34,815 bases of DNA, taken from positions 1-34,815 of the IMG/VR virus record IMGVR_UViG_3300047551_000666. One strand, given 5' to 3'. The position numbers and the translations under genes are program-made. Shown here piece by piece: positions 1,404 through 30,740 of this stretch. Numbering within the stretch: position 1 is the first letter of the stretch; every line of letters starts with the position of its first letter. A model generated the notes under the pieces. The model had not been told where the DNA came from. It searched no databases and saw only the letters and a list, made by a program, of their open reading frames with translations. The DNA comes from a virus.

Positions 1404-1750
1404 GTGATACTAAAGAAGATTACATTATAATTTGGGAAGCACCCAAAATCGTTCCACCAGAGTTTCGTTTATATTATGACGATGCTGGTAGAGTGATCAC
1501 CTATACATCAGAAAAGTTAGAAGGCACCTACATTCTGATTGACGCAATGACATTTGCGGCTGCAAGACCTGATGTTAGAGTTATAGATGGTAAAATCTCA
1601 ACTGTTCAACCTAATGCAATTATATCTAAGTTGATGCCCGACAATAAAGAAGGGCGTGATTGTGCATTAGAAGATGTTAGTATAGTTGTAGAAAAGAAAG
1701 ACAAAATTAAAAAACAAAAGTGGAAATTAAACACATATGAACTCGGATGA
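1400..1750 (+). CDS. small conserved-looking protein of unknown function
   Basis: A 116-residue protein whose ATG overlaps the stop of the preceding glycosyltransferase (ATGA), with its own end overlapping the next gene by 14 bases. It has no signal peptide or membrane segment. The middle part, with EGTYILIDAMTFAAARPDVR and VIDGKI, reads as a compact beta-rich fold. The C-terminus is charged and lysine-rich. It resembles small hypothetical proteins found between glycosyltransferase genes in marine T4-like phages, but no function is assigned to them. Its tight placement between two GT-like genes suggests an accessory role to one of them; that is inference only. Confidence 0.6.
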   Translation: MSDTKEDYIIIWEAPKIVPPEFRLYYDDAGRVITYTSEKLEGTYILIDAMTFAAARPDVRVIDGKISTVQPNAIISKLMPDNKEGRDCALEDVSIVVEKKDKIKKQKWKLNTYELG

Positions 1751-7789: not shown

Positions 7790-7791
7790 CA

Positions 7792-11377: not shown

Positions 11378-12351
11378 AAAAGATTTTAATTTGCGGTGCT
11401 GGTGGATTCATTGGATCACATTTAGTAAAAACATTCAAAGAGCAGGGCCATTATATTATTGGCGCGGATCTAAAACATCCATTGTATGAAAAAACTGTAG
11501 CCGATGAGTTTCACATTATGGACTTGCGTGAACAAGAAAATGTACGCAAATTAATTACCAGTGACATAGATGAAATTTATCAACTAGCCGCTGATATGGG
11601 CGGCGCCGGCTATATCTTTACAGGCGAGCATGACGCTGATATAATGCACAACAGTTGTCAAATTAACCTTAACATATTGCACGAAATGGTAGCAAAAAAG
11701 GTTAAGAATGTTTTCTATAGTTCTAGTGCATGTATGTACCCCTCACATAATCAAGAGGATCCTGACAATCCACTATGTACTGAAGAAAGTGCATATCCTG
11801 CTAATCCAGATAGCGAATATGGTTGGGAAAAATTGTTTAGTGAACGCCTATACATGACGTATGCTAAAAATTATGGCTTACGTGTACGCATAGCACGTTT
11901 TCATAACATATATGGTCCTAAAGGTAGTTGGAACAATGGTAAAGAAAAAGCGCCTGCTGCCTTATGTCGTAAGGTAGCAATGTGTGATGAAGGTGGTATA
12001 GTAGAAGTTTGGGGACCAGGTATTCAAACACGTAGTTTTCTATTCATTGACGAATGTATAACTGGCATTCAGAAAATAATGGAAAGTAACTGTGAAGAAC
12101 CTGTTAATTTAGGTAGTACAAGAATGATTAGTATAAACGATTTAGTGTTACTAATCGCACGTATTGCTGACAAGACAGTGTTGATAAAAAATATACCAGG
12201 CCCAATGGGAGTTATGGGACGCAACAGCGACAACACAATGATTAGAGCATTGGTTGGTTGGGCGCCCGACGAAGATTTAGAATACGGTCTAAAAATAACA
12301 TATGACTGGATACAGGAGCAAATAAACAATCATGTTCCTGATCATGATTAA
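11374..12351 (+). CDS. GDP-mannose 3,5-epimerase-like NAD-dependent epimerase
   Basis: A 325-residue extended short-chain dehydrogenase. GAGGFIG at residues 8-14 is the NAD-binding loop and YGWEK (Y149, K153) the catalytic Tyr-x3-Lys. SSACMYP (C120) and EKAPAALCRK (K192) match the Cys and Lys that do acid/base chemistry in plant GDP-mannose 3,5-epimerase, and the RFHNIYGP and TRSFLFIDEC segments are also typical of that family. The known enzyme converts GDP-mannose to GDP-L-galactose and GDP-L-gulose through a 4-keto intermediate. A related GDP-sugar epimerase is possible. It would feed the GT10-like transferases here. It overlaps the upstream gene by 4 bases. Confidence 0.8.
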   Translation: MKKILICGAGGFIGSHLVKTFKEQGHYIIGADLKHPLYEKTVADEFHIMDLREQENVRKLITSDIDEIYQLAADMGGAGYIFTGEHDADIMHNSCQINLNILHEMVAKKVKNVFYSSSACMYPSHNQEDPDNPLCTEESAYPANPDSEYGWEKLFSERLYMTYAKNYGLRVRIARFHNIYGPKGSWNNGKEKAPAALCRKVAMCDEGGIVEVWGPGIQTRSFLFIDECITGIQKIMESNCEEPVNLGSTRMISINDLVLLIARIADKTVLIKNIPGPMGVMGRNSDNTMIRALVGWAPDEDLEYGLKITYDWIQEQINNHVPDHD

Positions 12352-12366
12352 CCTAACGGATAAACA

Positions 12367-13242
12367 ATGAAAAAGTATATAATTGGATTAGGATGTAGTT
12401 GGACTCAAGGTGAAGGCGGCTACCCAGAAGAAATATGGAAAGAATATAACGGTAGAGTACAACTACGTGGTGTAGATGATTATCATTTGCGTCACTATGA
12501 ACATGAGAACAGTTGGGTAAATGTATTGTGCAGGGATCATTTCCCTGAGTATACTCCTATGAATTTAGGGGCACGTGGTATAGGTAATCGTGCCGCTGTT
12601 CACCAATTGCACTTTTGCGATAGAATAGATTGGAATAATAGTACAGGACTTATTGTATTAATGCAAAGCGGATTTGAACGCTTTGACTTCTTTCAACAGC
12701 ATCCTAAGCATCAACGTAATCAAGACGATGGATATAGCAACGGTGAGTACGTACATTACAAATGGCGTACAATGTGGCCATTCTCAGGTAATGGTGGTGC
12801 AGAAGAACCATTATGGGCAGCATATGAACGTATGCTTTGGAGTGATCAATTTGTTGCAAGTGAACAAATGATGGCATTATTAGATTTACAAACTTTTGCT
12901 AAAGCACACAACTTTCAAGTTGTTGTTGCAAATGGATTTAACCAACAGCACAGGGGAGTTAAGCATTACTTACGTGAGCATGCAGGATATATAGCAGACA
13001 AGTTTGATTGGAATACTTTTTTACATGACACTACACCTTATTCTGCAATGATTCAAAAATTAGTAGAATTAGATGGTATATTAAAACCCGAAGATTGGGG
13101 AGCATATCATCAAGTGTATTATAATAGAGATTGGCCCGCTAAATACTTAACCAACTGTCAAGGCGCACATCCAACCATAGAAGGGTACAAAGTGGTCGCT
13201 GAAGAGTTGGCTAGATTTATAAGATTGCGTGGGTATGTCTAA
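12367..13242 (+). CDS. SGNH/GDSL hydrolase-like protein
   Basis: A 291-residue protein. GLGCSWTQGEGG puts the nucleophile Ser11 in block I. LGARGIGNRAAVHQL carries the glycine and asparagine that form the oxyanion hole, and GAHPTIEGYKVVAEEL near the C-terminus supplies the histidine. The Asp two residues before that His in most GDSL enzymes is not obvious here. Families of this fold remove or transfer acyl groups on sugars and lipids. Here, among glycan genes, an O-acyl esterase or acyltransferase of the glycan is the likely role. No signal peptide, so cytoplasmic. Weak Shine-Dalgarno (ACGGA) upstream. Confidence 0.65.
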   Translation: MKKYIIGLGCSWTQGEGGYPEEIWKEYNGRVQLRGVDDYHLRHYEHENSWVNVLCRDHFPEYTPMNLGARGIGNRAAVHQLHFCDRIDWNNSTGLIVLMQSGFERFDFFQQHPKHQRNQDDGYSNGEYVHYKWRTMWPFSGNGGAEEPLWAAYERMLWSDQFVASEQMMALLDLQTFAKAHNFQVVVANGFNQQHRGVKHYLREHAGYIADKFDWNTFLHDTTPYSAMIQKLVELDGILKPEDWGAYHQVYYNRDWPAKYLTNCQGAHPTIEGYKVVAEELARFIRLRGYV

Positions 13243-15163
13243 AAAGAAAATAAGTTTTGTTAGCCCTAACTTCCAACAAGGACCTAAGGAATTTAATGCA
13301 TATTATCTTCCTTATAGTCCTGCTGTCCTATGGAGTTATGTAGTACAGTTTCCTCATATCAATGATAACTTTGAGTTGGGTGACTTTATATGGCGAAGAG
13401 ACTTAATAGAAGAAGCAGTAGAATTACTTAAAGATAGTGATATTGTAGGGTTCAGTACCTACATTTGGAATCGTAGTTATAGCGCAGTACTAGGTAGAGA
13501 ACTAAAGAAGGCTAATCCTAATATTTTTATTATAGCAGGTGGACCTGAGTATCCTATTGAGAAGCCTGACTTCTTTAAAAAGTATCCCTTTATTGATGTA
13601 TGTGTTAAACTTGAAGGCGAAATTACTTTTAGAAAGATATTAGAAAATCTAATATTACCTGAGCCTGACTTTAAATCAATCCCCGGCTTACTAATTAATA
13701 ACAACGGTGAAACTATAGACACTGGCAGTAGCCCACGTATAGATGACTTAGATAAGATACCTAGTCCTTATTTGACAGGTATATTTGACAAGTTAATGGC
13801 GAAGCACCCTGAGATACGTTGGAACGCAACTTTAGAAACAAATCGTGGTTGCCCCTATGCATGTACATTTTGTGATTGGGGAAGTCTTACATACAATAAA
13901 GTTAAGAAGTTTAACCTTGAACGTGTATATGCTGAACTAGAATGGATAGGCAAAAAAGGGTTAGACTTTGTAAGCATCACTGATGCTAACTTTGGTATAT
14001 TCCCTGAACGTGATATGTTAATCGCTGACAAACTTATTGAAACGCAAAAGACATATGGTAATCCAAAGGCATATACGATTGCATGGGCAAAGAATCAAAA
14101 ACAAGAAGTTGTTGAAATTGTTCGTAAATTGATTTACGAAGGTGGAAGTAAGATTGGTCTAAACTTATCAGTTCAGACAATGGATGATAATGTGCTTGAT
14201 ATTATCAAACGTAAGAATCTTGAAATGAATAAGATTGAAGAAGTATTCAAAATGTGTGAAGAGCATAACATTCCTCTTTACACTGAATTAATATTAGGGT
14301 TACCAGGAGAGACATTAGAGAGTTGGAAAGAAAACTTCTTTAAGTTATACAAGAGCGGTAACCATACTGGTATCACGATTTATCAAGCACAGTTGCTTGA
14401 GAATGCTGAAATGAATTTGACACAACGTGGCCTATATAAGTTAGAAGGTCGTGTTGTTTATGATTATCTTGTTGGTACTTATAACGAACATGAATTACGT
14501 GAAGGTGTAGAAGTTGTAATCTCTACTAGAGATTTACCTAAAGAGAAAATGACACAAGCGCAACTTATAAGTTGGTTTCAAAATACCTTTCATATCAACG
14601 GCATAACAAATTATATTAGTAGAGTATTATATAAACAACAAGGTATTGAATATAGAGAGTTCTATGATAAACTTTGGAACCACATACAGAAAGATGAATG
14701 GTTAAAGAGTGAAGTAGACAGAATCGCAGACCACTATGGTAATTGGTCTAAACATGGACTTATTGACCATACTCCTATACAAGGTATGGAGATACATGGT
14801 TGGAATCTAGTCCATAGTACTACAATTAATCTACACAGTGAAGGAAAGCACAGTCATATTTTTGATGTAGTTGAAGATTTTTTACGTAGTGAGTTCACAA
14901 TAGAAGAATCATTATTGCAAGAACTAATGCTATTCCAACGTACATATCTTATCGACTATAAGGACTGTTCTAACTATCCTAAGTTACTAAATTTTAAACA
15001 TGATATTCCAGGATATGTGCAGGATATAGCAGAATTAAATACACCCTGTGTTTATGAATTTGATTTTCCCGAAGATAAACACCAGTCGTTACAACGATTC
15101 TGTGAGCAGATATTTTTTGCTAGACGCAGAAATTTTGGAAAATCATGGATTACTAAAAAATGA
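13235..15163 (+). CDS. radical SAM protein with B12-binding-like N-terminal domain
   Basis: A 642-residue protein counted from ATG 13235; a GTG at 13229 would add two residues. Residues 5-140 form a Rossmann-like B12-binding fold (ISFVSPN, DIVGFSTYIWN, IFIIAGGPEYP, EGEITF), but the Asp-x-His-x2-Gly cobalamin ligand motif is not seen, so it may not bind B12. The radical SAM triad C206-x3-C210-x2-C213 (RGCPYACTFC) follows, with ITDANFGIF and a LILGLPGET segment typical of the B12-type core. The last 230 residues are an unassigned extension. It starts 8 bases inside the SGNH gene and ends in an ATGA overlap. Substrate unknown. Confidence 0.85.
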   Translation: MSKKKISFVSPNFQQGPKEFNAYYLPYSPAVLWSYVVQFPHINDNFELGDFIWRRDLIEEAVELLKDSDIVGFSTYIWNRSYSAVLGRELKKANPNIFIIAGGPEYPIEKPDFFKKYPFIDVCVKLEGEITFRKILENLILPEPDFKSIPGLLINNNGETIDTGSSPRIDDLDKIPSPYLTGIFDKLMAKHPEIRWNATLETNRGCPYACTFCDWGSLTYNKVKKFNLERVYAELEWIGKKGLDFVSITDANFGIFPERDMLIADKLIETQKTYGNPKAYTIAWAKNQKQEVVEIVRKLIYEGGSKIGLNLSVQTMDDNVLDIIKRKNLEMNKIEEVFKMCEEHNIPLYTELILGLPGETLESWKENFFKLYKSGNHTGITIYQAQLLENAEMNLTQRGLYKLEGRVVYDYLVGTYNEHELREGVEVVISTRDLPKEKMTQAQLISWFQNTFHINGITNYISRVLYKQQGIEYREFYDKLWNHIQKDEWLKSEVDRIADHYGNWSKHGLIDHTPIQGMEIHGWNLVHSTTINLHSEGKHSHIFDVVEDFLRSEFTIEESLLQELMLFQRTYLIDYKDCSNYPKLLNFKHDIPGYVQDIAELNTPCVYEFDFPEDKHQSLQRFCEQIFFARRRNFGKSWITKK

Positions 15164-16320: not shown

Positions 16321-18276
16321 ATGAAAAAAGTAGCAATGATAGGTGTGGGTAAATTGGGACAAGATTGTGCCGAAGTTATGTTCGAAGCAGGACATGATGT
16401 TATTGGGTATGACGTTGAAGTTCGTAACCCAATGTTCCCAATGAAAGGCACAATAAAAGAAGCGGTAGAAGATAGAGATTTAATTTTTATAGCCGCACCC
16501 ACTCCTCATGATCCTATATATGGCGGTGAAACACCTACTAGTCATTTACCAAATAAAGATTTTGACTATTCAATAGTTAAAGGTATATTAAACGAAGTCA
16601 ACGCACATGTTACTAAGAATCAACTAGTAGTACTAATCAGTACAGTATTACCTGGAACAGTTAGAAATCAACTTGAACCATGTATCACAAATGCACGTTT
16701 CATCTACAACCCATATCTTATTGCTATGGGGACAATCAAATGGGATATGACTAATCCTGAAATGGTCATCATAGGAACTGATGATGGATCAGTAACCGGC
16801 GATGCTAAAGAATTGATTGACTTTTACAAGGGATTTATGCAGAATAATCCTAGATATGAAGTTGGTACATGGGACGAAGCAGAATCAATTAAGATTTTCT
16901 ACAATACATTCATCAGCACCAAATTGGCATTAGTCAATATGATACAAGACGTTGCAGAACGTAATGGTAATATCAATGTTGATATAGTAACCAATGCATT
17001 AGCAAATAGTACATATAGAATTATGGGTCCTGCGTATATGAAAGCAGGGTTGGGCGATGCAGGCGCATGTCATCCACGTGATAATATTGCATTGCGATAC
17101 TTAGCAGAACGTTTAGATTTGGGCTATGATTTGTTTGACGCTATTATGAAAGCACGTGAAGTTCAAGCAGAAAACATGGCACTAAAATGTTTAGAGCATG
17201 GTAAGAACGTTACGATAGTTGGTAAGGCATACAAACCTAAAGTACACTACACTAACGGTAGTGCTAGTATGTTAGTTGGACATTATGTTGAGAAACATGG
17301 TGGTACAGTAAATTACTATGATATCCATACCGGTGATAATGATTTAAAAACAGAATGGACTAACGTTTACCTAATTGGTTATTGGGAAGAATATGTAGAA
17401 CAGATAGTGTTCCCAAAACAAGTTACAGTAATTGACCCTTGGAGAAAATTAAAACAAAGTAATGTTAAGGTCATTCATTACGGTGATACTAGAAAGAAAT
17501 CAGATGTATCAGAGTTAAAGGATTTTAAAGTTTTTACTCACACCGCACCTAATGGCGCAAAAGTAGAATTAGTTCCTATAGATGTAGATTTACTTGACTC
17601 TGCTAAAATTGAAAGAGAATGGCAGTTAAACAGTGGTATCAAAGTAAAATCACCATTGATGTTTAATGGTGGAGGATTAGAATATAAAGATTTCTTAATT
17701 GAAACAATAAGAAGAACAGGCAAGTACACATACAATCGTGCATTTGAATGGTGTTCAGGGTTTGGTGTTTTAGGATTTGAAAGTTTAGGTATGAGTGTAT
17801 GTAATCATATCGTATTCTCAGACTATCATCCTAAGGCAATTGAAACTTGTTTAGACAATGCAAAAAGAAATAATTTAACACATTATGTCACAGGTTATGT
17901 AAGCCCAACAATAAGCGAGATACCTAAACATGAATTATGGGACTTAGTAATTTCTAATCCACCCCACGCCCCCGACCTTGACTCAATAGTTAAAGGTATG
18001 ATTGATGAAGGGCAAGACCCTAAGGCAGCATTAAATTCTGCTAGATTAATTGTTGATTCTAATTGGACAATTCATAAAGAATTTATGGAGAATATTATTC
18101 CGCATTTACAATCTGATGCAGATATATACCTAATAGAGAATTTACATTACGATTCCTTAGTACATTTGGGTAAATTAGCAGGTTTAAGATACATAAATTC
18201 TTACGAATATCCAGAAACACACTCGACAGGACATTCAAGGCATGTTATAATGCACTTTAAGGGTCCGATTAAATAA
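16321..18276 (+). CDS. fusion of nucleotide-sugar dehydrogenase and methyltransferase
   Basis: A 651-residue two-domain protein. Residues 1-390 resemble UDP-glucose/GDP-mannose 6-dehydrogenases: GVGKLG at 8-13 binds NAD, K191 and N195 (ESIKIFYNT) match the catalytic Lys and Asn, and C250 (GDAGACHPRDN) matches the cysteine that forms the thiohemiacetal. That family oxidises the C6 alcohol of a nucleotide-sugar to a uronate. Residues 400-651 are a class I SAM methyltransferase: motif I FEWCSGFGVLGFE at 475-487, acidic FSDYHP near 500 and NPPH at 546-549, the motif IV form seen in N-methyltransferases of the HemK type. The frame is continuous across the join. It may oxidise then methylate the same sugar, but the methyl acceptor is unknown. 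Confidence 0.78.
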   Translation: MKKVAMIGVGKLGQDCAEVMFEAGHDVIGYDVEVRNPMFPMKGTIKEAVEDRDLIFIAAPTPHDPIYGGETPTSHLPNKDFDYSIVKGILNEVNAHVTKNQLVVLISTVLPGTVRNQLEPCITNARFIYNPYLIAMGTIKWDMTNPEMVIIGTDDGSVTGDAKELIDFYKGFMQNNPRYEVGTWDEAESIKIFYNTFISTKLALVNMIQDVAERNGNINVDIVTNALANSTYRIMGPAYMKAGLGDAGACHPRDNIALRYLAERLDLGYDLFDAIMKAREVQAENMALKCLEHGKNVTIVGKAYKPKVHYTNGSASMLVGHYVEKHGGTVNYYDIHTGDNDLKTEWTNVYLIGYWEEYVEQIVFPKQVTVIDPWRKLKQSNVKVIHYGDTRKKSDVSELKDFKVFTHTAPNGAKVELVPIDVDLLDSAKIEREWQLNSGIKVKSPLMFNGGGLEYKDFLIETIRRTGKYTYNRAFEWCSGFGVLGFESLGMSVCNHIVFSDYHPKAIETCLDNAKRNNLTHYVTGYVSPTISEIPKHELWDLVISNPPHAPDLDSIVKGMIDEGQDPKAALNSARLIVDSNWTIHKEFMENIIPHLQSDADIYLIENLHYDSLVHLGKLAGLRYINSYEYPETHSTGHSRHVIMHFKGPIK

Positions 18277-18292
18277 ACAATAGGAGATAGTT

Positions 18293-20581
18293 TTGGATTT
18301 CACGTTAAGGCACCTTGCGGTTGATGAACTTAAACCACATGAGAAACCAACTGAAGATATAGCAGATGCACGCCATCGTAGCATGATGGAGGCTATTGCA
18401 CCTTATGCGAAACAAACACTTCAAAAGAATTTAACACCTGTTTATGTAGATTATAAAACACGTAATACTAAACTTGTATTAGTGTTATGTCCTGAGTGGT
18501 CACCTTATATGCCTCCTTTTAGTCTTGCTAGACTTAGTGGAGTTGCAAAAAGTGCAGGATATGAAACTCATATCATGGACTTAAACGTCAAAGCATATAA
18601 TGCTTTCCGTGATGATTGGTGGCCAAACAAGAAATTGCCTTTTAGACTTTGGGATCCATCAAGCAGTTGGCATTGGTTAGGTGATACCTACATGAATGAT
18701 ATTCATCCTGTACTAGAACCTATACTAAGCGAAGCAGTGGATAAGATTATTGCTATGGATCCGCAAGTAGTAGGCTTTAGTATCTATTACATCAGCGAAG
18801 AGCCTAGTAAGTGGATGTGCCAAGAGATTAAACGCAGAGCACCTCATATTAAGATTGCTGTTGGTGGACCTAATGTACATAAGAGTTGGTTCCCTATTCA
18901 AAAGTATTATGACTATGTTATCATTGGTGAGGGTGAACAGAATCTACTTGTTATGCTTGATGAAATTGAAGCAGGAGCAGAACATACAGGTGCACCTAGA
19001 GTATTGACACAGCCTGAAGATCAACGTATCAACATTAATGGTCTTCCTATGCCTGACTATGAAAGTATTGATTTTAGTCAGTATGAAGTTCCTAACGGAG
19101 TCAATAGTGAAATTAGTCGTGGATGTACTGCTAAGTGTACATTCTGCGAAGAAACGCACTTTTGGAAGTATCGTCAACGTCAAAGTGTTGACTTAGTTAC
19201 AGAAGTAGAATGGTTGTACTATAATAAGGGTACAGATATTATTTGGTTCATTGATAGTCTTATCAATGGTAACGTTAAAGAACTTAGAGCATTTGCACTA
19301 GCACTTAAAGCAAAGGGTCTAAAAGTTCGTTGGACAGGTTATGCTCGTTGCGATGGTCGCATGGATTTAGAATATCTACAAGACCTAGCCGACGGTGGAT
19401 GTATCATGTTTAACTTTGGTTGTGAATCAGGTAGTCAAAAAGTACTTGATGATATGAGCAAAGGTGTTACTATTCAGGAGATGGAACAGAACTTCATTGA
19501 CTGCAAGAAGGTTGGAATATGGGCCGCAACTAACTGGATCGTTGGATTTCCCACAGAAGATTTACAAGACTATAGCGACACAATGACATTCATGTGGCGT
19601 ATGAAAAACAATAACATGAATAACGCAGGTTTGGGTGTAGGATATGGATTAGGTCCCGAAACAATCGTTGGACAAAATCCTGACAAGTTTAATATCAGTT
19701 GGCACAAGTATCAGAATCACTGGATCACTAAAGATTTAAAGATGGGTGGCACACATGTTATGACACGTGTGAAGTGCATACATATGTGGTTAGACTTCTT
19801 TAGAGGTTGCACTGATGTACCTATCAGTTACCCTGTACGCACAGCATTAGAAAAGGATCATTATCATATCATACTTGATAACCCAAGTACAATGCGTGAT
19901 ATTGAATATGAAAAGTTTGATTATAATATCATCAAGCCAAACATCAATCCCTTCGCTGACACATTAGTAAACGAAATGTGGCCCTTCTTTAGAAATCTTT
20001 GGAGAGCAAGAGGCGGTTATATAGCACAAGTTAAGTTTAGTCCTGAACTAGACTTAAAAGAATTTGGTAGTCAATATGGTCCTGGTATGTATACTGCAAC
20101 ATTTAACTTTAGAATCAATGATGCAGGTCAATGGCATGCAGACTTTAAGTATAAGTTTGACCAAATAGATAACCCATATGATGATAGACTTCCTCCACCA
20201 GAAGGTCGTAAAGGTCCGTTCTACGCACAAGATTACTCACGTTTGCAAAGTAATACTGCTAAACGTGCTAGAAAGATTGCAAAGCCAACTTGGAGTGTAG
20301 ACGAAGGGCGTAGCGGTCAAGACTTCAGCGACTTACTACGTGAAGAAGCAGAACTCAACGCTAGCGTGGACTTTTCATTTGAATATCATTATGTTGGTGA
20401 CGGTGACTGGAGTAATTTAGAAGATTATAGAGTAGATGTTTCTAACGTCAAACGTGAAGCGATTCCAGAGAAAGAAGCAATGAGTGCATTGGACTTTGCT
20501 AAACAAGCACAACCTAATGTACAATCGGTGCCAATCACTAGCATAACTCGCAAAATTAGTAAGCCACAATTCCCAGTATAA
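18293..20581 (+). CDS. radical SAM protein with B12-binding-like N-terminal domain
   Basis: A 762-residue protein starting at TTG 18293, chosen because AGGAG stands seven bases upstream and no in-frame ATG occurs for 30 codons. Residues 60-225 are a B12-binding-like domain (KLVLVLCPEW, DPQVVGFSIYYI, IAVGGPNVH, IIGEGEQNL); the cobalamin ligand motif D-x-H-x2-G is absent. The radical SAM triad is C278-x3-C282-x2-C285 (RGCTAKCTFC), followed by WFIDSLINGN and a NFGCESGSQ segment as in this superfamily. The last 250 residues are an extension without a recognised domain. It is the second such protein here; the other is at 13235. Substrate unknown. Confidence 0.85.
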   Translation: MDFTLRHLAVDELKPHEKPTEDIADARHRSMMEAIAPYAKQTLQKNLTPVYVDYKTRNTKLVLVLCPEWSPYMPPFSLARLSGVAKSAGYETHIMDLNVKAYNAFRDDWWPNKKLPFRLWDPSSSWHWLGDTYMNDIHPVLEPILSEAVDKIIAMDPQVVGFSIYYISEEPSKWMCQEIKRRAPHIKIAVGGPNVHKSWFPIQKYYDYVIIGEGEQNLLVMLDEIEAGAEHTGAPRVLTQPEDQRININGLPMPDYESIDFSQYEVPNGVNSEISRGCTAKCTFCEETHFWKYRQRQSVDLVTEVEWLYYNKGTDIIWFIDSLINGNVKELRAFALALKAKGLKVRWTGYARCDGRMDLEYLQDLADGGCIMFNFGCESGSQKVLDDMSKGVTIQEMEQNFIDCKKVGIWAATNWIVGFPTEDLQDYSDTMTFMWRMKNNNMNNAGLGVGYGLGPETIVGQNPDKFNISWHKYQNHWITKDLKMGGTHVMTRVKCIHMWLDFFRGCTDVPISYPVRTALEKDHYHIILDNPSTMRDIEYEKFDYNIIKPNINPFADTLVNEMWPFFRNLWRARGGYIAQVKFSPELDLKEFGSQYGPGMYTATFNFRINDAGQWHADFKYKFDQIDNPYDDRLPPPEGRKGPFYAQDYSRLQSNTAKRARKIAKPTWSVDEGRSGQDFSDLLREEAELNASVDFSFEYHYVGDGDWSNLEDYRVDVSNVKREAIPEKEAMSALDFAKQAQPNVQSVPITSITRKISKPQFPV

Positions 20582-21378: not shown

Positions 21379-21464
21379 GATGGATTAAAACTCTTATTAG
21401 AGAATATAAGTATAGAAAACGTTTAAAAGAATTACGTAAAAGAGACCCATTTATTTACAAATGA
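21369..21464 (+). CDS. 31-residue basic peptide gene before the carbamoyltransferase
   Basis: ATG 21369 opens a 31-codon frame rich in Arg and Lys, beginning MLIRWIKTLIREYK and ending RDPFIYK. It overlaps the end of the SGNH gene by 10 bases and the start of the carbamoyltransferase by 4 (ATGA), so it fills the gap exactly. A frame bounded this way by coupling overlaps on both sides is likely to be translated. The peptide would be an amphipathic, strongly basic helix. It might serve mainly to couple translation, or act as a small partner; neither can be decided from the sequence. Confidence 0.6.
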   Translation: MLIRWIKTLIREYKYRKRLKELRKRDPFIYK

Positions 21465-22939
21465 ATCACATAGGAATAAGTTGCGGTTTCCATGACGCTG
21501 GATTAAGTGTCATAGGAAATAACGGAGAAATACTATTTGCTGGTCATAGCGAACGCTACAGCAAATATAAACATGATAAAGACCTGTGCGGTGATATCGC
21601 AAGGGATGCCCTACGCCACATCACAGATGATTATCAGTTACACTATTACGAAAAACCATGGCTTAAGGCATTGCGTCAATTACGTGCAGGACAACGATTA
21701 GGTCCTTTCTTTATGAGTAGTATCATAGGACCTGCAGTAATGGAAGAGTTTGGTAATAGAAAAGTCAAAACACATATACATCATATGACGCATGCGGCAG
21801 CAGGATTTCAAACAAGTCCTTTTGATAACGCTACAGTAGTTGTTATCGATGCTATTGGAGAACTAGATTGTATTACAATTTGGGACGCTTGGTATGATGA
21901 CAATGGTATAGCGCAGTACAAAAAACTTTGGAGTAGACAATACCCCAACAGTATAGGACTCATGTACAGTGCATTGACCGATTATGTTGGATTAAAGCCA
22001 ATGGATGAAGAATATATTCTTATGGGTATGGCTGCATACGGTAAAGTAAAATACTATAACAAAATTGAAAGCGAGTTCTTAGAAGATAGAACTGCTATGA
22101 CATTCAAGCGTAACCTGCACATAGGTATAGAAGATAAGTTCTTTGGTGAAGCAGACAACATGGACATAGCCGCAAGCGCACAGGCTCTTACTGAAGATTT
22201 GATTCAAGTAGTAATGAGTAAAGCACGTATGATGGGTAAGAGCCGTAACCTTGTATATGGTGGCGGTGTTGCACTTAACTGTCTTGCAAATAGATTGTTA
22301 GGTAACTTCTTTGAGAAGATGTGGATCATGCCTAACCCAGGAGATGCAGGTAATAGTTTAGGCGCAGCCGCATTGGGATATGGCAAAAAACTTATATGGC
22401 ATGATGCCTTCTTAGGACATAATATAGACGGTGATTATCCTGTAGAAGCAGTAATACAAGAATTAGAAACAAATAAAATGGTAGGCGTTGCTAATGGTAG
22501 AGCAGAGTTTGGACCACGTGCTTTAGGCAATCGCAGTTTATTAGCCGATCCGCGCGGTTCTGAAATTAAGGATAAAGTAAATGAAATTAAACGCAGACAA
22601 AAATTTAGACCGTTTGCTCCTGTTATACTTGAAGAACATGTCCATGATTATTTTGATATGCCTCGCGGCTGGAATGACAGTAGGTATATGCAGGTCATCG
22701 CTCGTTGCAGGCATGTTGACTTATTCCCTGCTATCGTTCATTATGATGGCACCAGTCGTGTACAAACTGTACAAAGAGACGGCACGGGAATACGAAAGTT
22801 ATTAGAAGCCTGGTATGCTAAAACAGGTTGTCCTATGCTACTTAACACTAGTTTAAATATCCGCGGAGAACCTATGGTTAATGATAGATTTGATGCTGAT
22901 AGATTTGAAAAATTATATAATTTGAGAGTTATTTCGTAA
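21461..22939 (+). CDS. NodU/CmcH/TobZ-type carbamoyltransferase
   Basis: A 492-residue O-carbamoyltransferase. The N-terminal GISCGFHDAGLSVI with His11 and AGHSERYSKYKHD are family signatures. H107-x3-H111 (HHMTH) and VVVIDAIGE near 127-133 match the metal and adenylate-binding Kae1-like domain. YGGGVALNC and GRAEFGPRALGNRSLLADPR mark the second half. The family makes carbamoyl-adenylate from carbamoyl phosphate and ATP and places the carbamoyl group on a hydroxyl of a sugar or antibiotic. It is shorter than the 560-600 residues of TobZ or NodU. The acceptor is probably the sugar built by the surrounding genes. Only one base separates it from the giant gene. Confidence 0.88.
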   Translation: MNHIGISCGFHDAGLSVIGNNGEILFAGHSERYSKYKHDKDLCGDIARDALRHITDDYQLHYYEKPWLKALRQLRAGQRLGPFFMSSIIGPAVMEEFGNRKVKTHIHHMTHAAAGFQTSPFDNATVVVIDAIGELDCITIWDAWYDDNGIAQYKKLWSRQYPNSIGLMYSALTDYVGLKPMDEEYILMGMAAYGKVKYYNKIESEFLEDRTAMTFKRNLHIGIEDKFFGEADNMDIAASAQALTEDLIQVVMSKARMMGKSRNLVYGGGVALNCLANRLLGNFFEKMWIMPNPGDAGNSLGAAALGYGKKLIWHDAFLGHNIDGDYPVEAVIQELETNKMVGVANGRAEFGPRALGNRSLLADPRGSEIKDKVNEIKRRQKFRPFAPVILEEHVHDYFDMPRGWNDSRYMQVIARCRHVDLFPAIVHYDGTSRVQTVQRDGTGIRKLLEAWYAKTGCPMLLNTSLNIRGEPMVNDRFDADRFEKLYNLRVIS

Positions 22940-22940
22940 T

Positions 22941-25900
22941 ATGCTAAGAGATGTTTTTTACTTTGGAAAAAAGCCAAACGCACATCCCAGAGAAAGACTT
23001 GCTAAATCATTAGATGATGCAAGAAAGCAAGCCACAACCAAAGACTTTTGGATAATCAATGAATTCTGCGATTACAAAAACTTTGATTGGGACTTTGACT
23101 TTGAGTTTTTACCTGATGAAGATGTATGGGCTGAAGATCATAATAATGTATGGCCCAGTGTTTATCAAAAAGATAGCGGCACATGGTTATGTGCTAAACA
23201 AAAAAGTGATATCACAATATACAGAAATGATGTACAACCATTAAAACGTAAAAACGAAAAGAATGATAACTGGGTATTACATGATTTAATTGACGAAACT
23301 AAATTCGATTTTGGTTGGCATCCTGACCCTACTGACCCTCCTTATATCTATAAGTGGGGTAGTAAGTTTTACCCAGCACAGTTTCAAACTGTATTAGAGT
23401 ATCGTGTATCGGGGGCAACGGATGTTAAGTACATGGATACTATTGTTGAGTTACTACCACAACATGAACGTTGGGTAGAAAATCATAAGATTGACAGGAA
23501 CAAGTTTGACATGTCATGGAGACCTGATCCAATGGATCCTCTATACATTTATGTTTGGGGCAATCCTCATATAGACCCTACATTAGAATCTACACTAGAA
23601 TATCATACACCGGGCGCCACTGATAAAAAGTATATGCCTGAAAAACTTGTTGTATTACCGCAATACGAACGCTGGACACAACATGTTAAGATAGATGAAT
23701 CTAAGTTTGATTTGAGTTGGAGACCTGACCCACGTGAACCTGCATTTAACTACGTATGGGGCAACAAATATGAACCGGGTGAAATCAAACCCACATTAGA
23801 ATATAGTATGCCAGGTGCAACTCAAGTCAAATATATGACTGACCCTGTACCAGTACTGCCTCAATATGAACGTTGGGTAGAACATGTAGCAGTTGATAAA
23901 ACTAAATTTGATTTCAGTTGGAGACCTGATCCACGTGAGCCGGCGTACAACTATGTATGGGGTAACAAGTATGAGCCAGCAGAAATTAAACCCACATTAG
24001 AATATCGCATGCCAAATGCCACTGATGTAAAATACATGAGTGAATGTGTAGACGTATTACCGCAAACAGAACGCTGGACTATACTAGACGAAACAGTTGA
24101 CAAAGATAAGTTTGATTTTACATGGCGCCCTGACCCAAGAGAACCTCCGTATATCTATACTTGGGGCAACAAATACGAACCAGCAGAAATTAAACCAACA
24201 TTAGAATATCATGTTTTGGGCGCAACTGAGCGCAAGTACATGGGTAATGATGTTGCCGTGTTACCACAGTGGGATCGCTGGGTAGAAATAACACCAGTTG
24301 ATAAAAAGAAAAGCAGTAAGAATGGTTTTGATTTCAGTTGGAGACCTGATCCACGTGAGCCTGCATATATCTATACTTGGGGAAACAAATATGAACCGGC
24401 AGAAATTACTCCAACGTTAGAATATCGTATGCCTTCTGCAACAGAGGTCAAGTATATGACTGAACAGGTAGAAGTATTGCCACAGTGGAATCGCTGGATA
24501 GAACACGTACCCGTAGATAAGTTACGTAGTGAAGAGAATGGTTTCGATTTTAGTTGGAGACCAGACCCACGTGAACCTGCGTTTAACTATGTATGGGGTA
24601 ACAAATTTGAAGATGCTGAGATAAAACCCACATTAGAGTATCGAATGCCTAATGCAACCGATATAAAATACATGTCTGAAAGATTAGAGGTTCAACCTCA
24701 ATGGGACCGTTGGATAGAAAATACCCCAGTTGATAAAAAGAAAAGCAGTAAAAATGGTTTTGATTTTAGTTGGAGACCAGACCCACGTGAGCCAGCATAT
24801 ATCTATACTTGGGGGAACAAATACGAACCAGCAGAGATTAAACCTACACTAGAGTATATCGTACCCGGCGCAACTGAGCGCAAATATATGCCTGAATGTG
24901 TAGAAGTACTACCCCAATTGGACCGTTGGATAGAACATACCCCTGTTGATAAGTTACGTAGTGAAGAGAATGGTTTCGATTTCAGTTGGAGACCAGACCC
25001 ACGTGAACCAGCGTTTAATTATGTATGGGGTAATAAGTTTGAAGATGCCGAAATGATACCTACGTTAGAGTATCGTATGCCAGATGCAACACAAGTCAAA
25101 TACATGCTAGAACGTGTTGATGTATTACCACAGTGGGACCGTTGGACAATACTTGAAGAAGTAGTTAAGTCAACATTTGACTTTAGTTGGCGCCCAGACC
25201 CACGTGAGCCTGCATTAATTTATGTATTTGGTAATGAATTATATGACGGCACAATTATGCCAACCATTGAATATAGAATGGAGGGCGCAACTGAAAAGAA
25301 ATATATCAATCATTGGACTAAGCCTACATTAAAACCAAATAAAAAACTATTTGAATTCTTAGAAGATAGTGATGGGTTAGATTATAGTTGGAGACCTAAT
25401 CCAACTAGCCCACCATATATCTATGCGTGGGGAAATCAATGGAATAAGCCAGAAGATAAAGTAAGTGTACAGTATGTTGTCGAAGGTGCAACAGAATACA
25501 AGTATATGAGTGAACGTGCTATACGCAAACACTGCATGGACAACTGGATTATACCTAGTGATGTTGATGTTAAGGGATTTGACTTTAGTTGGGAACCTAG
25601 CCCAGCAGACCCTGCATATATCTATGAGTTTGGTACACAATGGCAAAAAACAGGTGGACCAAAATATGTTGTGCCTGGCGCAACACAAACAAAATATGTT
25701 GATACATTTAAAGTAAAGAAGTTGCCTAGCAAGGCCAATTGGATTATACCTAAGAATGTAGACGTTACAAACTTTGACTTCAGTTGGCACCCAGATGCGA
25801 CAAGTCCTGCATATACATATCACTTTGCTACTCAGTGGGCAACTAGTGGTGGACCGATTTATGCAGTACCGGGCGCCACAGAAGTTAAGTATATTGATGA

Positions 25901-28900
25901 TCAGGTTGCTAAGATGTTGCCTGATAAAACAAACTGGGAATATGATACTAATCTAATTGACGATACAACATTCGATTTCAGTTGGCATCCATATGTAGAA
26001 GATCAACCGTATATCTATGTGTTTGGCACACAATGGCAAAAGACTGGTGGCCCGCGTTATATAACCCCAGGCTGTCATAAAAACAGTCCTGTAAAGTATA
26101 TTGATACACGTATCTTAAAAGCAAAGCGTAAACCATGCATGGATAACTGGGTTGTATTAGATAACTTAAACGTTATTGATTTTGATTATAGTTGGCACCC
26201 AGATGATACTGAAGAAGCATATATCTATCAATTCGGTAATAATCAATATCCTGCTGAGATAATGCCCACTATAGAGTATACTGTGCAAGGCGCAAAGCAA
26301 TTTAAGTATGTGCATGATATCGTTGCTACGTTAGGACCTGATAAAACAAACTGGGAAATTCCAGACAACATTGATGATACTGGCTTTGATTATAGTTGGA
26401 AACCTAACCCTAAAGACCCGTCATACATATATGAGTTTGGTACTCAGTGGCAAAAGACGGGAGGTCCTCGCTATGTAACATATAGAGCGACCGAAGTCAA
26501 ATACATTGATACACAAAAAGTAAAACGTTTAGAATCTAAAGACAATTGGACTGTTCCAAATAATTGCGATATTACAGGATTTGATTTTAGTTGGCATCCA
26601 GATGATACAAGTCCTCCGTATGTTTATTACTTCCCCACTCAGTGGGCACTAAGCGGCGGACCAGTATACACAGTACCTGGTGCTACTGAAGTTAAGTATG
26701 TTGAAGATCAAACTGCTATTGCTACTGTTGATAAAACTAACTGGATAGTACCAGATGATATTGATGCAGATAGTTTCGACTTTAGTTGGCATCCATATGT
26801 AGAAGATCAACCTTATATCTATCAATTCGGTACTCAATGGCAAAAGACGGGTGGACCAAGATATGTTACACCAGGTTGTCATAAGAATAGTCCTGTCAAA
26901 TATATTGACACACGTATTTTAAAAGCAAAAAAGAAATCTTCAATTAAGAATTGGGAGATACCTGATAACTTAGATGTTAAAGACTTTGACTTTAGTTGGC
27001 ATCCAGATGATACTGAAGAGCCATTCATTTATCAATTTGGTACTCAATGGCAAAAGACGGGTGGCCCTCGCTATGTAGTTCATAATGCAAAGGCTTTTAA
27101 GTATATTGATTTACAAAAAGCAAAACATATGCCGTCAATGGACAACTGGGACATTCCTGCATATGTTGATGTTGATAGTTTTGATTTTAGTTGGCATCCA
27201 GATGATACCGGAGAGCCATATAACTATGTGTTCCCTACTGAGTATCAACAACAGGGTGGACCTGTATATAAGATGCATGGTGCAGATAGTGAAGCATATC
27301 TAAATCATCCTGTTGCAAAGACTAAGCCACAACTTGAACGTTGGGAGATTCCTAATAACGTAGACCTAACTGATTTTAAACTCAACTGGCACCCACATCC
27401 TAAGGATCCGCCCTACATCTATCAGTTTGGTACGCAATGGCAAAAAACGGGTGGTCCTAAGTATATCGTAGAAGGTGCTACTGAAGTTAAGTACCTAGAT
27501 ATTAGTAAGGTTAAAGTATTACCTAACAAGAAGAACTGGCAAGTTATGCCTGGATTAAAGATTGATGACTTTGATTACACTTGGCATCCAGATAGTACTG
27601 AAGAACCTTATATCTATGTGTTTGGTAACACACAATACTCAGCAGAAAGTATGCCTACTATTAAGTACGTAGTACCCGGTGCTACAGAACTAAAGTATGT
27701 ACATGATATTGTAGCAAAACTTGCACCTAACAAAAAGAACTGGCATGAGATTATACCTATAGATAAGGATGAGTTTGATTATAGTTGGATACCTGATCCT
27801 AATAGTCCTCCTTATATCTATGTGTTTGGTAATCAATGGAATAGAGCAGAGTTAGAATCTACTGTTGAATATCGTGTACCTGGGGCAACAGAATACACAT
27901 ACGTACAAGATATTGTTGCTAAGGTTAAACCCAATAAAAAGAATTGGAAGATAACAGGCTTAATTGATGAGTCAAAGTTTGACTTCAGTTGGAGACCTAA
28001 TCCCAAAGATCCTGAGTACATTTATCAGTTTGGTACACAACATCAAAAGACAGGTGGACCTAGATATATTGTTAAAGGTGCTACGCAAATAAAATACGTA
28101 GAAGATATTAAAGCAGTAGCATTACCTAACAAAAAGAATTGGGATATTCCTGAGAACCTTGATATAGCAGACTTTGACTTCAGTTGGCATCCAGATGACA
28201 CTGACCCGCCATTCATTTATCAGTATGGTACTCAGTGGGCATTGACTGGTGGACCAAGATATGTAGTGCCCGGTGCGACTAGTACAAAGTACGTTGAAGG
28301 TGTTGTCGCTAAAGTAGGTCCTAACATGCAGAACTGGGAAGTACCAGATGACATTGCAGTTAAAGAATTTGACTTTAGTTGGCACCCATACGCAGAAGAT
28401 GAACCTTTTATATATCAGTTTGGTACACAGCATCAAAAGACTGGTGGTCCAAGGTATATAGTCCCTGGTGCAACTAAAGTAAAGTATATTGACAAACGTA
28501 TTTTAAAAGCACGTAAACTAACTAGAAAATCTAATTGGAGAATACCTGCAGGCATTAATACTGCTAAGTTTGACTTCAGTTGGCATCCAGATGATACAGC
28601 ACCGCCATACATATATCAATTTGGTACGATAGAGGATCCTATTGATGGTCCTAAGTATCTTACTCCAAACAATAACGGAGAAACAGTTTACTTAAACAGA
28701 ATTGAACTATCAGCAGACAACGTAATAGAGGAACCAAAGCATGTTGACTATCCTAAATATCATATTGTAACTACACTAGAAGATTTGATTGAAGAGCATC
28801 CAACTGAAATCTTTTGGGCTATGAGTTCTGAAGTTGATTATACTTCATTTGATTTTGATTGGAGACCTAACATTGAACAAGCACAATATGTACACGTGTT

Positions 28901-30740
28901 TGGTCAGAGTGAAAGTATTAAGTCACAAACATACTTTGTCAATGCTGTGTTATGGTATAAGGGATTCAATGAGTTTAATTTCGTAGAAGAACAAGTACAA
29001 AAGAAAGTCAATGACTTAGATATGTTCTTTGTAGACAGAGGAAATCCTGAGGCACAAAAGCGTTTCGATACACTTAAGGCTAGATATCCTAAACTACAAA
29101 AGACACGTTATCTAAACAGTTGGGTCGATACTGTTAATCGTTGTTGCAATCGTGCAAGTAGCACATTATTATGGGTATTGAATAGTGAATTAGATTATAC
29201 TAATTTCAATTTTGAATACTATCCTAACCCTTGGCAGACTAAAATGGTTCATGTGTTTGGTACACAATGGAGTCATTGGGGTACAACGTTTATGGTTAAC
29301 CGTGAAACATTCTCAGTTGATACAAAGTATATAAAGATCATTGAGCATTTAAGCAATCTCAACTTTGTTAAAGAGATTAAAGCATTTGCTACTAAATGCA
29401 CTTATGATATTGTGTTGATTGATCATGGTAATAAACAAACTAATGATATTGCTGAATACTTAAAAACTAAATCAATCGGTGATGTATCTACATTCAAGTA
29501 TGATGTTAGTTACTTGAACACATTAAAGAATATAGTTAATAAGTTGCCTGCAAAGAAAGAACATTATATTTGGATTTGCAGTAGCGTTTGCGATTATAAA
29601 GGATTTGATTTTAGTTACATCATTGATCCATTCTCTCGGGACAATCTACATGTATTCCCCAGCGAAAAGCAAAAGTTTGGTGACACATTCTTCGTAGACG
29701 TAAACAAATTGCGTGAGTTAATCAATAGTGTTGAGTTGCTTGAAAATTATAAAGTCAATTACAATCAAGCACAACGAGCAACTAGATTACCTGCACCAGT
29801 TGTAGTTGTCAATGAAGATACACATAGCAACGCTGTTAAGTATTTACAAGACTTTCCATACACTGTAATGGTATCAGAAGATAACAAAGATATTGACGGT
29901 GTAGAAATAGAACCAATGTCATTGTGGGATCCTTCAAGTAAGAACATTATAGTTACAAGCGTTGGTGCTACAAGAATTATAGTTCCAAATGAAATTAAGG
30001 ATCATGTAAAAACACAACTGTACGATTATCCGTATATTAAGAAGTCATCTAAACTATCAATGTCTACACCATTAGATATTGTATTTTTAAGTAACGGTGA
30101 AACAGGTGCAGAAGAGAACTACGAACACTTGTTGAAGATTACTAAAGGACTGAAGAACAGAGTTGTTAGAGTCGATGGTATAAATGGTCGTGTGCAAGCA
30201 TATCACGCATCAGCACAAGCAAGTAACACACCATGGGCGTTCACTGTATTTGCTAAACTAAAAGTTAGTGCTAAGTTTGACTTTAACTGGCAACCTGATA
30301 GAATGCAAGTACCAAAGCATTATGTGTTCCAAGCAAAGAATCCTGTTAATGGATTGATCTATGGACACCAAGCAATGATTGCATACAACAAGAATCTTAC
30401 GTTGAAGAACGAAGGATTAGGTTTAGACTTTACAATGGATGATCCACATGAAGTTGTAGAGTTACTGTCAGGTGTTGCTAATTATAACACAGATGCATTC
30501 AGTACATGGAGAACTGCATTTAGAGAAGTTATTAAACTACAATGGGACCGCACCGAAGTTAGTGACAAGAGATTAGAAACTTGGATATCCAAAGCAGAAG
30601 GTGAATATGCTCAATATAGTTTAGACGGTGCAAGAGATGCACTGGCATATTACTCAGAAGTTGAGGGTAGATTTGATAAGTTAAAACTCAGTTATGAATG
30701 GGAATGGCTGAAGAACTATTTTAATAAGAAATATAAGTGA
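22941..30740 (+). CDS. giant 2599-residue repeat protein with glycosyltransferase-like C-terminus
   Basis: Residues 1-105 form a distinct N-terminus (DVFYFGKKPNAHPRERLAKS; later FDWDFDFEFLPDEDVW). Residues about 106-1906 hold about 27 repeats of 55-72 residues with the core F-D-F-S-W-(R/H)-P-D-x4-P-x-Y-I-Y-x-(W/F)-G-N/T. Repeats 1-11 mostly have WGNKYEPAEI followed by TLEY; repeats 12-27 mostly have FGTQWQKTGGP. Three longer divergent units follow near 1956, 2075 and 2208, the last two with strands such as DMFFVDRGN and DIVLIDHGN before the W-x3-S-x2-D-Y-x2-F core. Residues 2377-2599 resemble the GT-like protein at 1737 but lack its D-G-D motif. There is no signal peptide. Function unknown; a scaffold, a substrate of the nearby enzymes or a degenerate multi-domain transferase are all possible. 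Confidence 0.85.
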   Translation: MLRDVFYFGKKPNAHPRERLAKSLDDARKQATTKDFWIINEFCDYKNFDWDFDFEFLPDEDVWAEDHNNVWPSVYQKDSGTWLCAKQKSDITIYRNDVQPLKRKNEKNDNWVLHDLIDETKFDFGWHPDPTDPPYIYKWGSKFYPAQFQTVLEYRVSGATDVKYMDTIVELLPQHERWVENHKIDRNKFDMSWRPDPMDPLYIYVWGNPHIDPTLESTLEYHTPGATDKKYMPEKLVVLPQYERWTQHVKIDESKFDLSWRPDPREPAFNYVWGNKYEPGEIKPTLEYSMPGATQVKYMTDPVPVLPQYERWVEHVAVDKTKFDFSWRPDPREPAYNYVWGNKYEPAEIKPTLEYRMPNATDVKYMSECVDVLPQTERWTILDETVDKDKFDFTWRPDPREPPYIYTWGNKYEPAEIKPTLEYHVLGATERKYMGNDVAVLPQWDRWVEITPVDKKKSSKNGFDFSWRPDPREPAYIYTWGNKYEPAEITPTLEYRMPSATEVKYMTEQVEVLPQWNRWIEHVPVDKLRSEENGFDFSWRPDPREPAFNYVWGNKFEDAEIKPTLEYRMPNATDIKYMSERLEVQPQWDRWIENTPVDKKKSSKNGFDFSWRPDPREPAYIYTWGNKYEPAEIKPTLEYIVPGATERKYMPECVEVLPQLDRWIEHTPVDKLRSEENGFDFSWRPDPREPAFNYVWGNKFEDAEMIPTLEYRMPDATQVKYMLERVDVLPQWDRWTILEEVVKSTFDFSWRPDPREPALIYVFGNELYDGTIMPTIEYRMEGATEKKYINHWTKPTLKPNKKLFEFLEDSDGLDYSWRPNPTSPPYIYAWGNQWNKPEDKVSVQYVVEGATEYKYMSERAIRKHCMDNWIIPSDVDVKGFDFSWEPSPADPAYIYEFGTQWQKTGGPKYVVPGATQTKYVDTFKVKKLPSKANWIIPKNVDVTNFDFSWHPDATSPAYTYHFATQWATSGGPIYAVPGATEVKYIDDQVAKMLPDKTNWEYDTNLIDDTTFDFSWHPYVEDQPYIYVFGTQWQKTGGPRYITPGCHKNSPVKYIDTRILKAKRKPCMDNWVVLDNLNVIDFDYSWHPDDTEEAYIYQFGNNQYPAEIMPTIEYTVQGAKQFKYVHDIVATLGPDKTNWEIPDNIDDTGFDYSWKPNPKDPSYIYEFGTQWQKTGGPRYVTYRATEVKYIDTQKVKRLESKDNWTVPNNCDITGFDFSWHPDDTSPPYVYYFPTQWALSGGPVYTVPGATEVKYVEDQTAIATVDKTNWIVPDDIDADSFDFSWHPYVEDQPYIYQFGTQWQKTGGPRYVTPGCHKNSPVKYIDTRILKAKKKSSIKNWEIPDNLDVKDFDFSWHPDDTEEPFIYQFGTQWQKTGGPRYVVHNAKAFKYIDLQKAKHMPSMDNWDIPAYVDVDSFDFSWHPDDTGEPYNYVFPTEYQQQGGPVYKMHGADSEAYLNHPVAKTKPQLERWEIPNNVDLTDFKLNWHPHPKDPPYIYQFGTQWQKTGGPKYIVEGATEVKYLDISKVKVLPNKKNWQVMPGLKIDDFDYTWHPDSTEEPYIYVFGNTQYSAESMPTIKYVVPGATELKYVHDIVAKLAPNKKNWHEIIPIDKDEFDYSWIPDPNSPPYIYVFGNQWNRAELESTVEYRVPGATEYTYVQDIVAKVKPNKKNWKITGLIDESKFDFSWRPNPKDPEYIYQFGTQHQKTGGPRYIVKGATQIKYVEDIKAVALPNKKNWDIPENLDIADFDFSWHPDDTDPPFIYQYGTQWALTGGPRYVVPGATSTKYVEGVVAKVGPNMQNWEVPDDIAVKEFDFSWHPYAEDEPFIYQFGTQHQKTGGPRYIVPGATKVKYIDKRILKARKLTRKSNWRIPAGINTAKFDFSWHPDDTAPPYIYQFGTIEDPIDGPKYLTPNNNGETVYLNRIELSADNVIEEPKHVDYPKYHIVTTLEDLIEEHPTEIFWAMSSEVDYTSFDFDWRPNIEQAQYVHVFGQSESIKSQTYFVNAVLWYKGFNEFNFVEEQVQKKVNDLDMFFVDRGNPEAQKRFDTLKARYPKLQKTRYLNSWVDTVNRCCNRASSTLLWVLNSELDYTNFNFEYYPNPWQTKMVHVFGTQWSHWGTTFMVNRETFSVDTKYIKIIEHLSNLNFVKEIKAFATKCTYDIVLIDHGNKQTNDIAEYLKTKSIGDVSTFKYDVSYLNTLKNIVNKLPAKKEHYIWICSSVCDYKGFDFSYIIDPFSRDNLHVFPSEKQKFGDTFFVDVNKLRELINSVELLENYKVNYNQAQRATRLPAPVVVVNEDTHSNAVKYLQDFPYTVMVSEDNKDIDGVEIEPMSLWDPSSKNIIVTSVGATRIIVPNEIKDHVKTQLYDYPYIKKSSKLSMSTPLDIVFLSNGETGAEENYEHLLKITKGLKNRVVRVDGINGRVQAYHASAQASNTPWAFTVFAKLKVSAKFDFNWQPDRMQVPKHYVFQAKNPVNGLIYGHQAMIAYNKNLTLKNEGLGLDFTMDDPHEVVELLSGVANYNTDAFSTWRTAFREVIKLQWDRTEVSDKRLETWISKAEGEYAQYSLDGARDALAYYSEVEGRFDKLKLSYEWEWLKNYFNKKYK
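23270..28660 (+). repeat. array of about 27 coding repeats in the giant gene
   Basis: Imperfect tandem repeats of roughly 165-216 bases, in frame throughout. At the DNA level most copies have drifted, but some are nearly identical. The unit with GATAAGTTACGTAGTGAAGA occurs at 24516 and again at 24948, and ATAAAAAGAAAAGCAGTA occurs at 24301 and 24733: both pairs are 432 bases apart. A four-repeat super-unit recurs with an 804-base offset (25981 and 26785). The array therefore grew by duplication of blocks of two and four repeats. Confidence 0.85.
24301..25164 (+). repeat. 432-base tandem duplication of a two-repeat block
   Basis: Two adjacent 432-base units (144 residues each, about 24301-24732 and 24733-25164) carrying repeats 6+7 and 8+9. 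The insert KKKSSKNG or KLRSEENG before the FDFSWRPDPREP core alternates in the same order in both units. Differences are mainly at third codon positions, so this is one of the latest expansions of the array. Exact edges are approximate. Confidence 0.7.

Follow-up and report, generated by a model that had tools for sequence, protein, structure and literature searches.

The 34,815-base IMG/VR virus record analyzed here (the window) devotes 7.8 kb to a single gene, whose product of 2599 residues is built largely of tandem aromatic-rich units, and thereby raises the question of what such a protein is, from what it derives, and what it may do for a phage. The answer proposed below comprises (i) a likely fold and evolutionary origin for a large unannotated protein common in uncultured T4-like jumbo phages; (ii) a possible path from an enzyme domain to a tandem repeat scaffold, with plausible intermediates in other viral contigs; and (iii) a phage system for sugar modification, so far little known, that pairs twitch radical SAM enzymes with the GT-A-like protein, a pairing kept in Bdellovibrionia as well.

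The Giant Protein and Its Repeat Array

The open reading frame of the giant protein, denoted W in comparisons, begins with ATG and contains no internal stop, its bounds agreeing exactly with the single giant gene described in the initial annotation (Table 1); at the base composition of the window, a stop-free run of 2599 codons is expected by chance with a probability of about 1e-89. The approximately 27 aromatic-rich repeats with a common core, likewise proposed there, are borne out as 27 units (aa ~111–1933) at a spacing of 65–72 residues, the strict core F[DN][FYLM][ST]WxP occurring 24 times versus 0.0 on average in 200 shuffled versions of the protein. Overall, the core motif occupies 32 positions, comprising (i) a related unit at aa 1–110, (ii) the 27 repeats, and (iii) four larger units, D1 to D4, which make up the conserved C-terminus of ~660 residues (aa ~1934–2599). 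Over 940 distinct units of relatives, conservation among the repeat positions is highest at W1 (100% of units reaching W1), P18 (99%), and D13 (96%), followed by F12 (95%), W16 (94%), Y41/Y51 (91%), and K50 (90%), and to a lesser extent by Y27 (86%) and G30 (84%). Two subtypes do exist, the WGNKYEPAEIKPTLEY type of 67–72 aa, found mostly in r2–r9, and the FGTQWQKTGGPRY type of 65 aa, found mostly in r12–r27; the ordering along the protein first ascribed to them is not strict, because long-type units reappear at r15, r22, and r23, and the subtypes interleave in the second half of the array. No stretch of membrane-helix hydrophobicity was found over the whole protein.

Sequence searches of the giant, its repeats, and a stand-alone paralog encoded in the same window against Pfam, PHROGs, NCBIfam, and the PDB returned weak or chance-level matches only, in line with the earlier view of the giant as unannotated, and no description of such a protein was found in the literature. 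Neither the giant nor its C-terminal domain matched Pfam Glycos_transf_2 (GT2) at the family cut-off, and a distant relative on another viral contig (L271) scored E 0.003 and 17.9 bits, below the cut-off of 23.3. The tblastn search of the giant, parts of the giant, the paralog, the distant relative L285, and a 229-aa Bdellovibrionia protein against 50,697 phage records gave no significant match, the carbamoyltransferase query used as positive control finding 145 phage records. The window displays no tRNA or Rfam match.

Relationship of the Repeat to the C-Terminal Domains and the Paralog

The comparison of profiles by hhalign, run for each separate domain with reversed profiles as controls, links the repeat to D1, D2, D3, and D4 (99.0, 98.9, 92.4, and 94.9, respectively) and D4 to the DGD-bearing paralog (96.5), the reversed controls reaching at most 1.6. 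The N-terminal unit aligns with the repeat (89.8), D1 (89.6), and D3 (90.0), against 11.9, 5.6, and 0.4 for the corresponding reversed controls. As D1, D2, and D3 display no direct hhalign match to the stand-alone paralog, their connection to GT-A enzymes goes via the repeat, D4, and the predicted fold. At the level of sequence, these comparisons show that the array, the N-terminal unit, and the C-terminal domains are mutually related, and the links between repeat, domains, and paralog identify each repeat as a segment of a GT-A glycosyltransferase-like domain, namely the part from the DxD-bearing strand onward, its second half. A confident match of the repeat to a characterized domain would, by the initial annotation, have refuted its reading, and such a match exists in part: the repeat is homologous to one half of the C-terminal domains of the giant itself, whose predicted fold is GT-A. 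Taken alone, it matches no solved structure.

Predicted Structure

The GT-A assignment was proposed from sequence motifs ahead of the structure search. For a short homolog, L079 (846 aa), the AlphaFold2 model is of moderate quality (pLDDT 77, pTM 0.50), and its top Foldseek matches in the PDB are GT-A enzymes, led by the chondroitin polymerase K4CP (E 1.6e-4) and followed by LH3, WrtF, and SunS; the simultaneous superposition of several domains keeps the TM-scores low. Compared separately by VIA, residues 537–762 of the model match B4GALNT1 with a Z of 12.2 (139 residues at 3.0 Å), and residues 393–525 match a β-1,4-galactosyltransferase with a Z of 9.7 (130 residues at 3.4 Å). The Rossmann-like α/β GT-A fold is thus seen in the prediction for this short homolog, and the C-terminal domains of the family are predicted to adopt it.

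The structure of adjacent repeats, a check suggested at the outset, was predicted for the N-terminus plus six repeats of the window, with a pLDDT of ~90–97 over most repeats and below 50 in much of aa 38–98. The array is predicted to be β-rich, and in the model (pLDDT above 90) the conserved aromatics seem placed to form the core of a folded unit. Despite the high pLDDT, the repeat model found no Foldseek match among solved structures at E ≤ 0.001, an absence that does not by itself amount to a new fold, and VIA returned nothing above noise; the profile-database search with one repeat, suggested together with the prediction, gave no match to a known repeat or carbohydrate-binding module.

Loss of the Metal-Binding Motif

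The metal-binding DxD motif of the GT-A superfamily is present in the stand-alone paralog, as DGD in 52/52 sequences, all of which also contain YGNGG, and is missing from the giant. D4 is the domain nearest to this paralog, and both the DGD and the subsequent GG are gone from it: the site aligned to DGD reads FAK in 58 of 60 sequences (NAK in one, unmatched in one), and YG is followed by HQA, HQG, or HMA in 58/60. Elsewhere in the giant the DxD site is variable in D1, S-S/T-x-C in D3, and ExD in D2, and about one-fifth of the repeats carry a D.D near the equivalent site, a feature that is not conserved. The NSELDY motif of D2 is kept in 54 of the 60 unique orthologs, the other matched variants preserving E and D with the exception of one NSELNY; with this conservation, D2 may have a substitute metal site or be an active domain. 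GT-A enzymes devoid of DxD are known.

Gene Neighborhood

The giant gene sits in a cluster of the sugar-modification type (Table 1).

Table 1. Features of the locus, with positions in the window
Feature	Position	Strand	Evidence
Stand-alone GT-A-like paralog, 317 aa, intact DGDN	1737..2690	+	Accompanies the giant, one copy per record, in 12/12 large records
Series of radical SAM genes, including at least one of twitch family NF033640 (5337–6563)	2690..10019	+	PHROG 14086/13987; NF033640, 361 bits (5337–6563); Pfam
Nucleotide-sugar epimerase	11374..12351	+	PHROG 540, E 1.6e-72
B12-binding radical SAM protein	13229..15163	+	Pfam
UDP-glucose dehydrogenase fused to methyltransferase domain	16321..18276	+	PHROG 9148; Pfam UDPG_MGDP_dh and MTS
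B12-binding radical SAM protein	18293..20581	+	Pfam, NCBIfam
Nol/NodU-like carbamoyltransferase, immediately upstream of the giant	21461..22939	+	Pfam Carbam_trans_N/C, PHROG 1601; adjacent in 37/44 loci
Giant protein, 2599 aa	22941..30740	+	Single ORF; orthologs in 83 further contigs
N-terminal unit, aa 1–110	22941..23270	+	Kept in orthologs (alignment); hhalign kinship to repeat and D1/D3
Array of 27 predicted half-GT-A repeats, aa 111–1933	23271..28739	+	High pLDDT over r1–r6; homology to D1–D4
D1, half GT-A-like unit, aa 1934–2029	28740..29027	+	hhalign 99.0 to repeat, 98.2 to D2
D2, GT-A-like domain, near-invariant NSELDY, aa 2030–2151	29028..29393	+	hhalign 98.9 to repeat, 97.9 to D3; motif tally
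D3, GT-A-like domain, aa 2152–2268	29394..29744	+	Equivalent L079 region 393–525 matches β-1,4-galactosyltransferase, Z 9.7
D4, C-terminal GT-A-like domain, aa 2355–2599	30003..30737	+	Z 12.2 (equivalent L079 region); hhalign 96.5 to paralog

Among the 12 large phage records, the giant and the paralog occur together in 12/12, and twitch radical SAM genes are likewise present in 12/12, at 1–17 per record and often clustered between the two. The carbamoyltransferase is without a Pfam match in 5/12 of these records, and the set of partners thus varies. Within the radical SAM row of the window, the gene at 6560–7789 was placed by similarity only.

Several minor features of the neighborhood were recorded. 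The 80–10019 cassette begins with two small genes and a short ORF, continues with the GT-A-like paralog, and then has the radical SAM genes, an order kept in several short MAG contigs (e.g., L197–L201) that might be phage sequence placed in bacterial bins. Four proteins (10025–11377, 15160–16299, 30737–31738, and 34249–34815) are without Pfam matches, and the first three share by eye an ...(E/T)KT(I/F/W)..(L/F)...HPFI-like stretch, so that they may represent a further glycosyltransferase-like family. The products of 12367–13242 and 20632–21378 have by eye the look of SGNH-type hydrolases, with no confident Pfam match, and the latter has matches in 37 loci. In two single T4-type phage contigs, L055 (352 kb) and L138 (303 kb), the twitch radical SAM matches number 16 and 17, respectively.

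Orthologs and Carrier Phages

A first scan of viral contigs gave 14 loci, and a second, with the C-terminal domain, was taken to the best 80 of 406 candidates; together they place the giant gene in at least 89 loci on 83 further contigs, some of which may be one phage assembled from different samples. The 46 unique full-length orthologs range from 846 to 2784 aa, with 3–31 repeat-model hits and both ends conserved. The 34.8-kb window itself carries neither a portal nor a gp23 gene, the phage group being known from relatives: on the 12 large contigs (155–524 kb) a T4-type portal and gp23 are present in 11, the twelfth being probably a fragment. These contigs show that the giant gene belongs to uncultured T4-superfamily jumbo phages, the closest isolates by portal being Sinorhizobium phage Phosso (54%), PA5oct and relatives (53%), and Agrobacterium phage Atu_ph07 (52%). 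The restriction to marine phages that the initial annotation gave for similar proteins is not supported, since orthologs reside in these jumbo phages, on contigs of up to 524 kb, and both bacteria and other viral contigs have more distant relatives. The "moraphage" jumbo lineage (PMC12619734) was considered and was not linked to this group; radical SAM and carbamoyltransferase genes are not mentioned there. On the L079 contig (258,859 bases), the T4 portal match at 133637–136276 falls in two pieces ~1.3 kb apart within one open frame of 1034 residues, and the portal gene therefore seems to bear an in-frame insertion.

Selection and Change of the Array

The strong selection that the length of the frame had suggested is observed: between W and its close relative L005, dN/dS is 0.012 in the N-terminal part, 0.048 in the colinear repeats, and 0.040 in the C-terminal part, the last a loose figure from near-saturated sites (dS 2.3). 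Strong purifying selection acts on both the ends and the repeats. Silent divergence in the C-terminal part (28740–30737) exceeds that in the repeats about fourfold (dS 2.3 vs 0.56), which suggests mosaic ancestry or recombination within the giant gene. Relative to L005, W has six extra long-type units, whole units thus being the step in which the array changes; the colinear units nevertheless hold their position and are mostly 92–99% identical, which suggests that individual units are of importance. Within W, r6 resembles r8 and r7 resembles r9 (81–86% at the amino acid level), with a silent distance of about 1 or more that argues against a fresh duplication.

Proposed Role and Alternative Explanations

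Taken together, homology, predicted fold, motif loss, selection, and genomic context lead us to a tentative reading, for which the chances fall somewhat short of even, in which the giant is a soluble, largely non-catalytic scaffold that binds glycans or acceptors for the neighboring sugar enzymes, with catalysis in trans. The GT-A-like half-block is amplified, with 3–31 repeat hits in the full-length orthologs, ahead of the four larger GT-A-like units; the aromatic-rich half-domains would offer a row of putative glycan or acceptor binding sites. With the canonical DGD replaced in the last domain, catalysis would be supplied by the intact-DGD paralog encoded 11–30 kb away, and the C-terminal pseudo-GT-A domains may position this active transferase together with the neighboring carbamoyltransferase and radical SAM enzymes, a phage-made sugar chain being held, extended, or decorated on the scaffold. 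The array length might set the reach or the number of sites, which would account for a variable array between fixed ends. A further step, possible but doubtful, is that a half GT-A domain without its metal motif became a self-stacking module, amplified as a glycan-binding ruler or assembly scaffold for a dedicated transferase and radical SAM enzymes, and hence a new class of repeat protein. The system would not be categorically new, because the GT-A-derived building block is recognizable, and the function given to the giant is a reading of sequence and model.

The giant might itself be an active glycosyltransferase, with D2, through its conserved ELD, or another C-terminal domain transferring the sugar while the repeats bind the growing chain; the predicted GT-A fold of two C-terminal domains, NSELDY in 54/60 orthologs, the DGD/DAD retained in the terminal domain of relatives on other viral contigs, and the strong purifying selection all fit, but the loss of DGD and the following GG in D4, the domain nearest to the paralog, the missing profile match between D2 and the paralog, and a separate transferase-like gene always nearby render it unlikely. 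A role in the virion, as a long surface or tail fiber with repeats that bind host glycans and a host-dependent length, draws on the soluble, β-rich array devoid of membrane segments and on a variation in length and repeat number that resembles that of fibers. It is nonetheless rather improbable given the GT-A ancestry, the location among sugar-modification genes, a portal gene lying 55–85 kb away (nine large records, those in which a quick look located the two genes), and the adjacent carbamoyltransferase in 37/44 loci.

Two readings centered on the neighboring enzymes find little room. That the array is a protein substrate whose aromatics are modified by the clustered radical SAM enzymes, in the style of peptide maturation, would suit the many radical SAM genes alongside (1–17 twitch-family hits per record), the regular spacing of W, F, and Y, and the best NCBIfam hits of the 18293–20581 product, which include RiPP C-methyltransferases, below cut-off; it is very improbable, however, as Bdellovibrionia have a twitch radical SAM gene by a GT-A-like pair without any array, the conserved aromatics look core-forming in the model (pLDDT above 90), and the UDP-sugar genes are left without explanation. 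T4-type phages glucosylate DNA, and the cluster could modify phage DNA bases with sugar or carbamoyl, the giant binding DNA or the transferases. A phage carbamoyltransferase acting on 5-hydroxymethylcytosine is a precedent (PMC8670742), but in the same study the carbamoyltransferases of unmodified contigs are flanked by glycosyltransferases, as at the giant locus. Thymidylate synthase genes occur once per record in 12/12, and the four that were read have Asn at the dUMP-selecting position, which argues against the hydroxymethylcytosine route of that study; DNA modification is accordingly disfavored and hardly to be expected.

Distant Relatives and Nearest Known Systems

Among known systems, GT-A fold glycosyltransferases such as the chondroitin polymerase K4CP, B4GALNT1, and WrtF resemble the giant in the predicted C-terminal fold and in tandem GT-A domains per chain, whereas the giant differs in the missing canonical DxD of D4, an identity of ~10%, 27 additional half-domain repeats, and no Pfam glycosyltransferase match. 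Two unannotated BFVD entries from uncultured phages, A0A6J5LK21 (804 aa) and A0A6J5L5L5 (1076 aa), are clear relatives with the predicted fold of L079 over most of their length, at 37% and 29% identity to it, respectively; being shorter than the giant, they would have far fewer repeats.

Proteins of other viral contigs (L243, L262, L271, and L285) display tandem DxD-less GT-A-like units, as in the giant, but their units are larger (~110 aa by eye) and their terminal domain keeps DGD or DAD. Members of this set are matched by the HMMs of D1, D2, the repeat, and D4 (E 2e-14 for D2 and 5e-7 for the repeat), and the DGD/DAD pattern is found in 70 of 90 unique ORFs of other viral contigs, fragments included. 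Viral proteins with DxD-less units followed by a DGD/DAD domain are plausible intermediates toward the giant. The giant and the paralog share one 303-kb contig with a gene for a 550-aa protein in which each of two GT-A-like domains has DGD (L186:726–2375, minus strand).

Bdellovibrionia contigs of up to 936 kb contain single-domain DGD relatives, mostly beside a twitch radical SAM gene. One case is a GT-A-like gene pair on contig L202, homologous to the paralog and D4, whose members, unlike the giant, are single domains with DGD and no repeat array; this gene set is possibly a cellular version of the phage cassette. At L202:5054–8218, the adjacent genes encode proteins of 319 and 229 aa, both with DGDN, and are followed by the twitch radical SAM gene.
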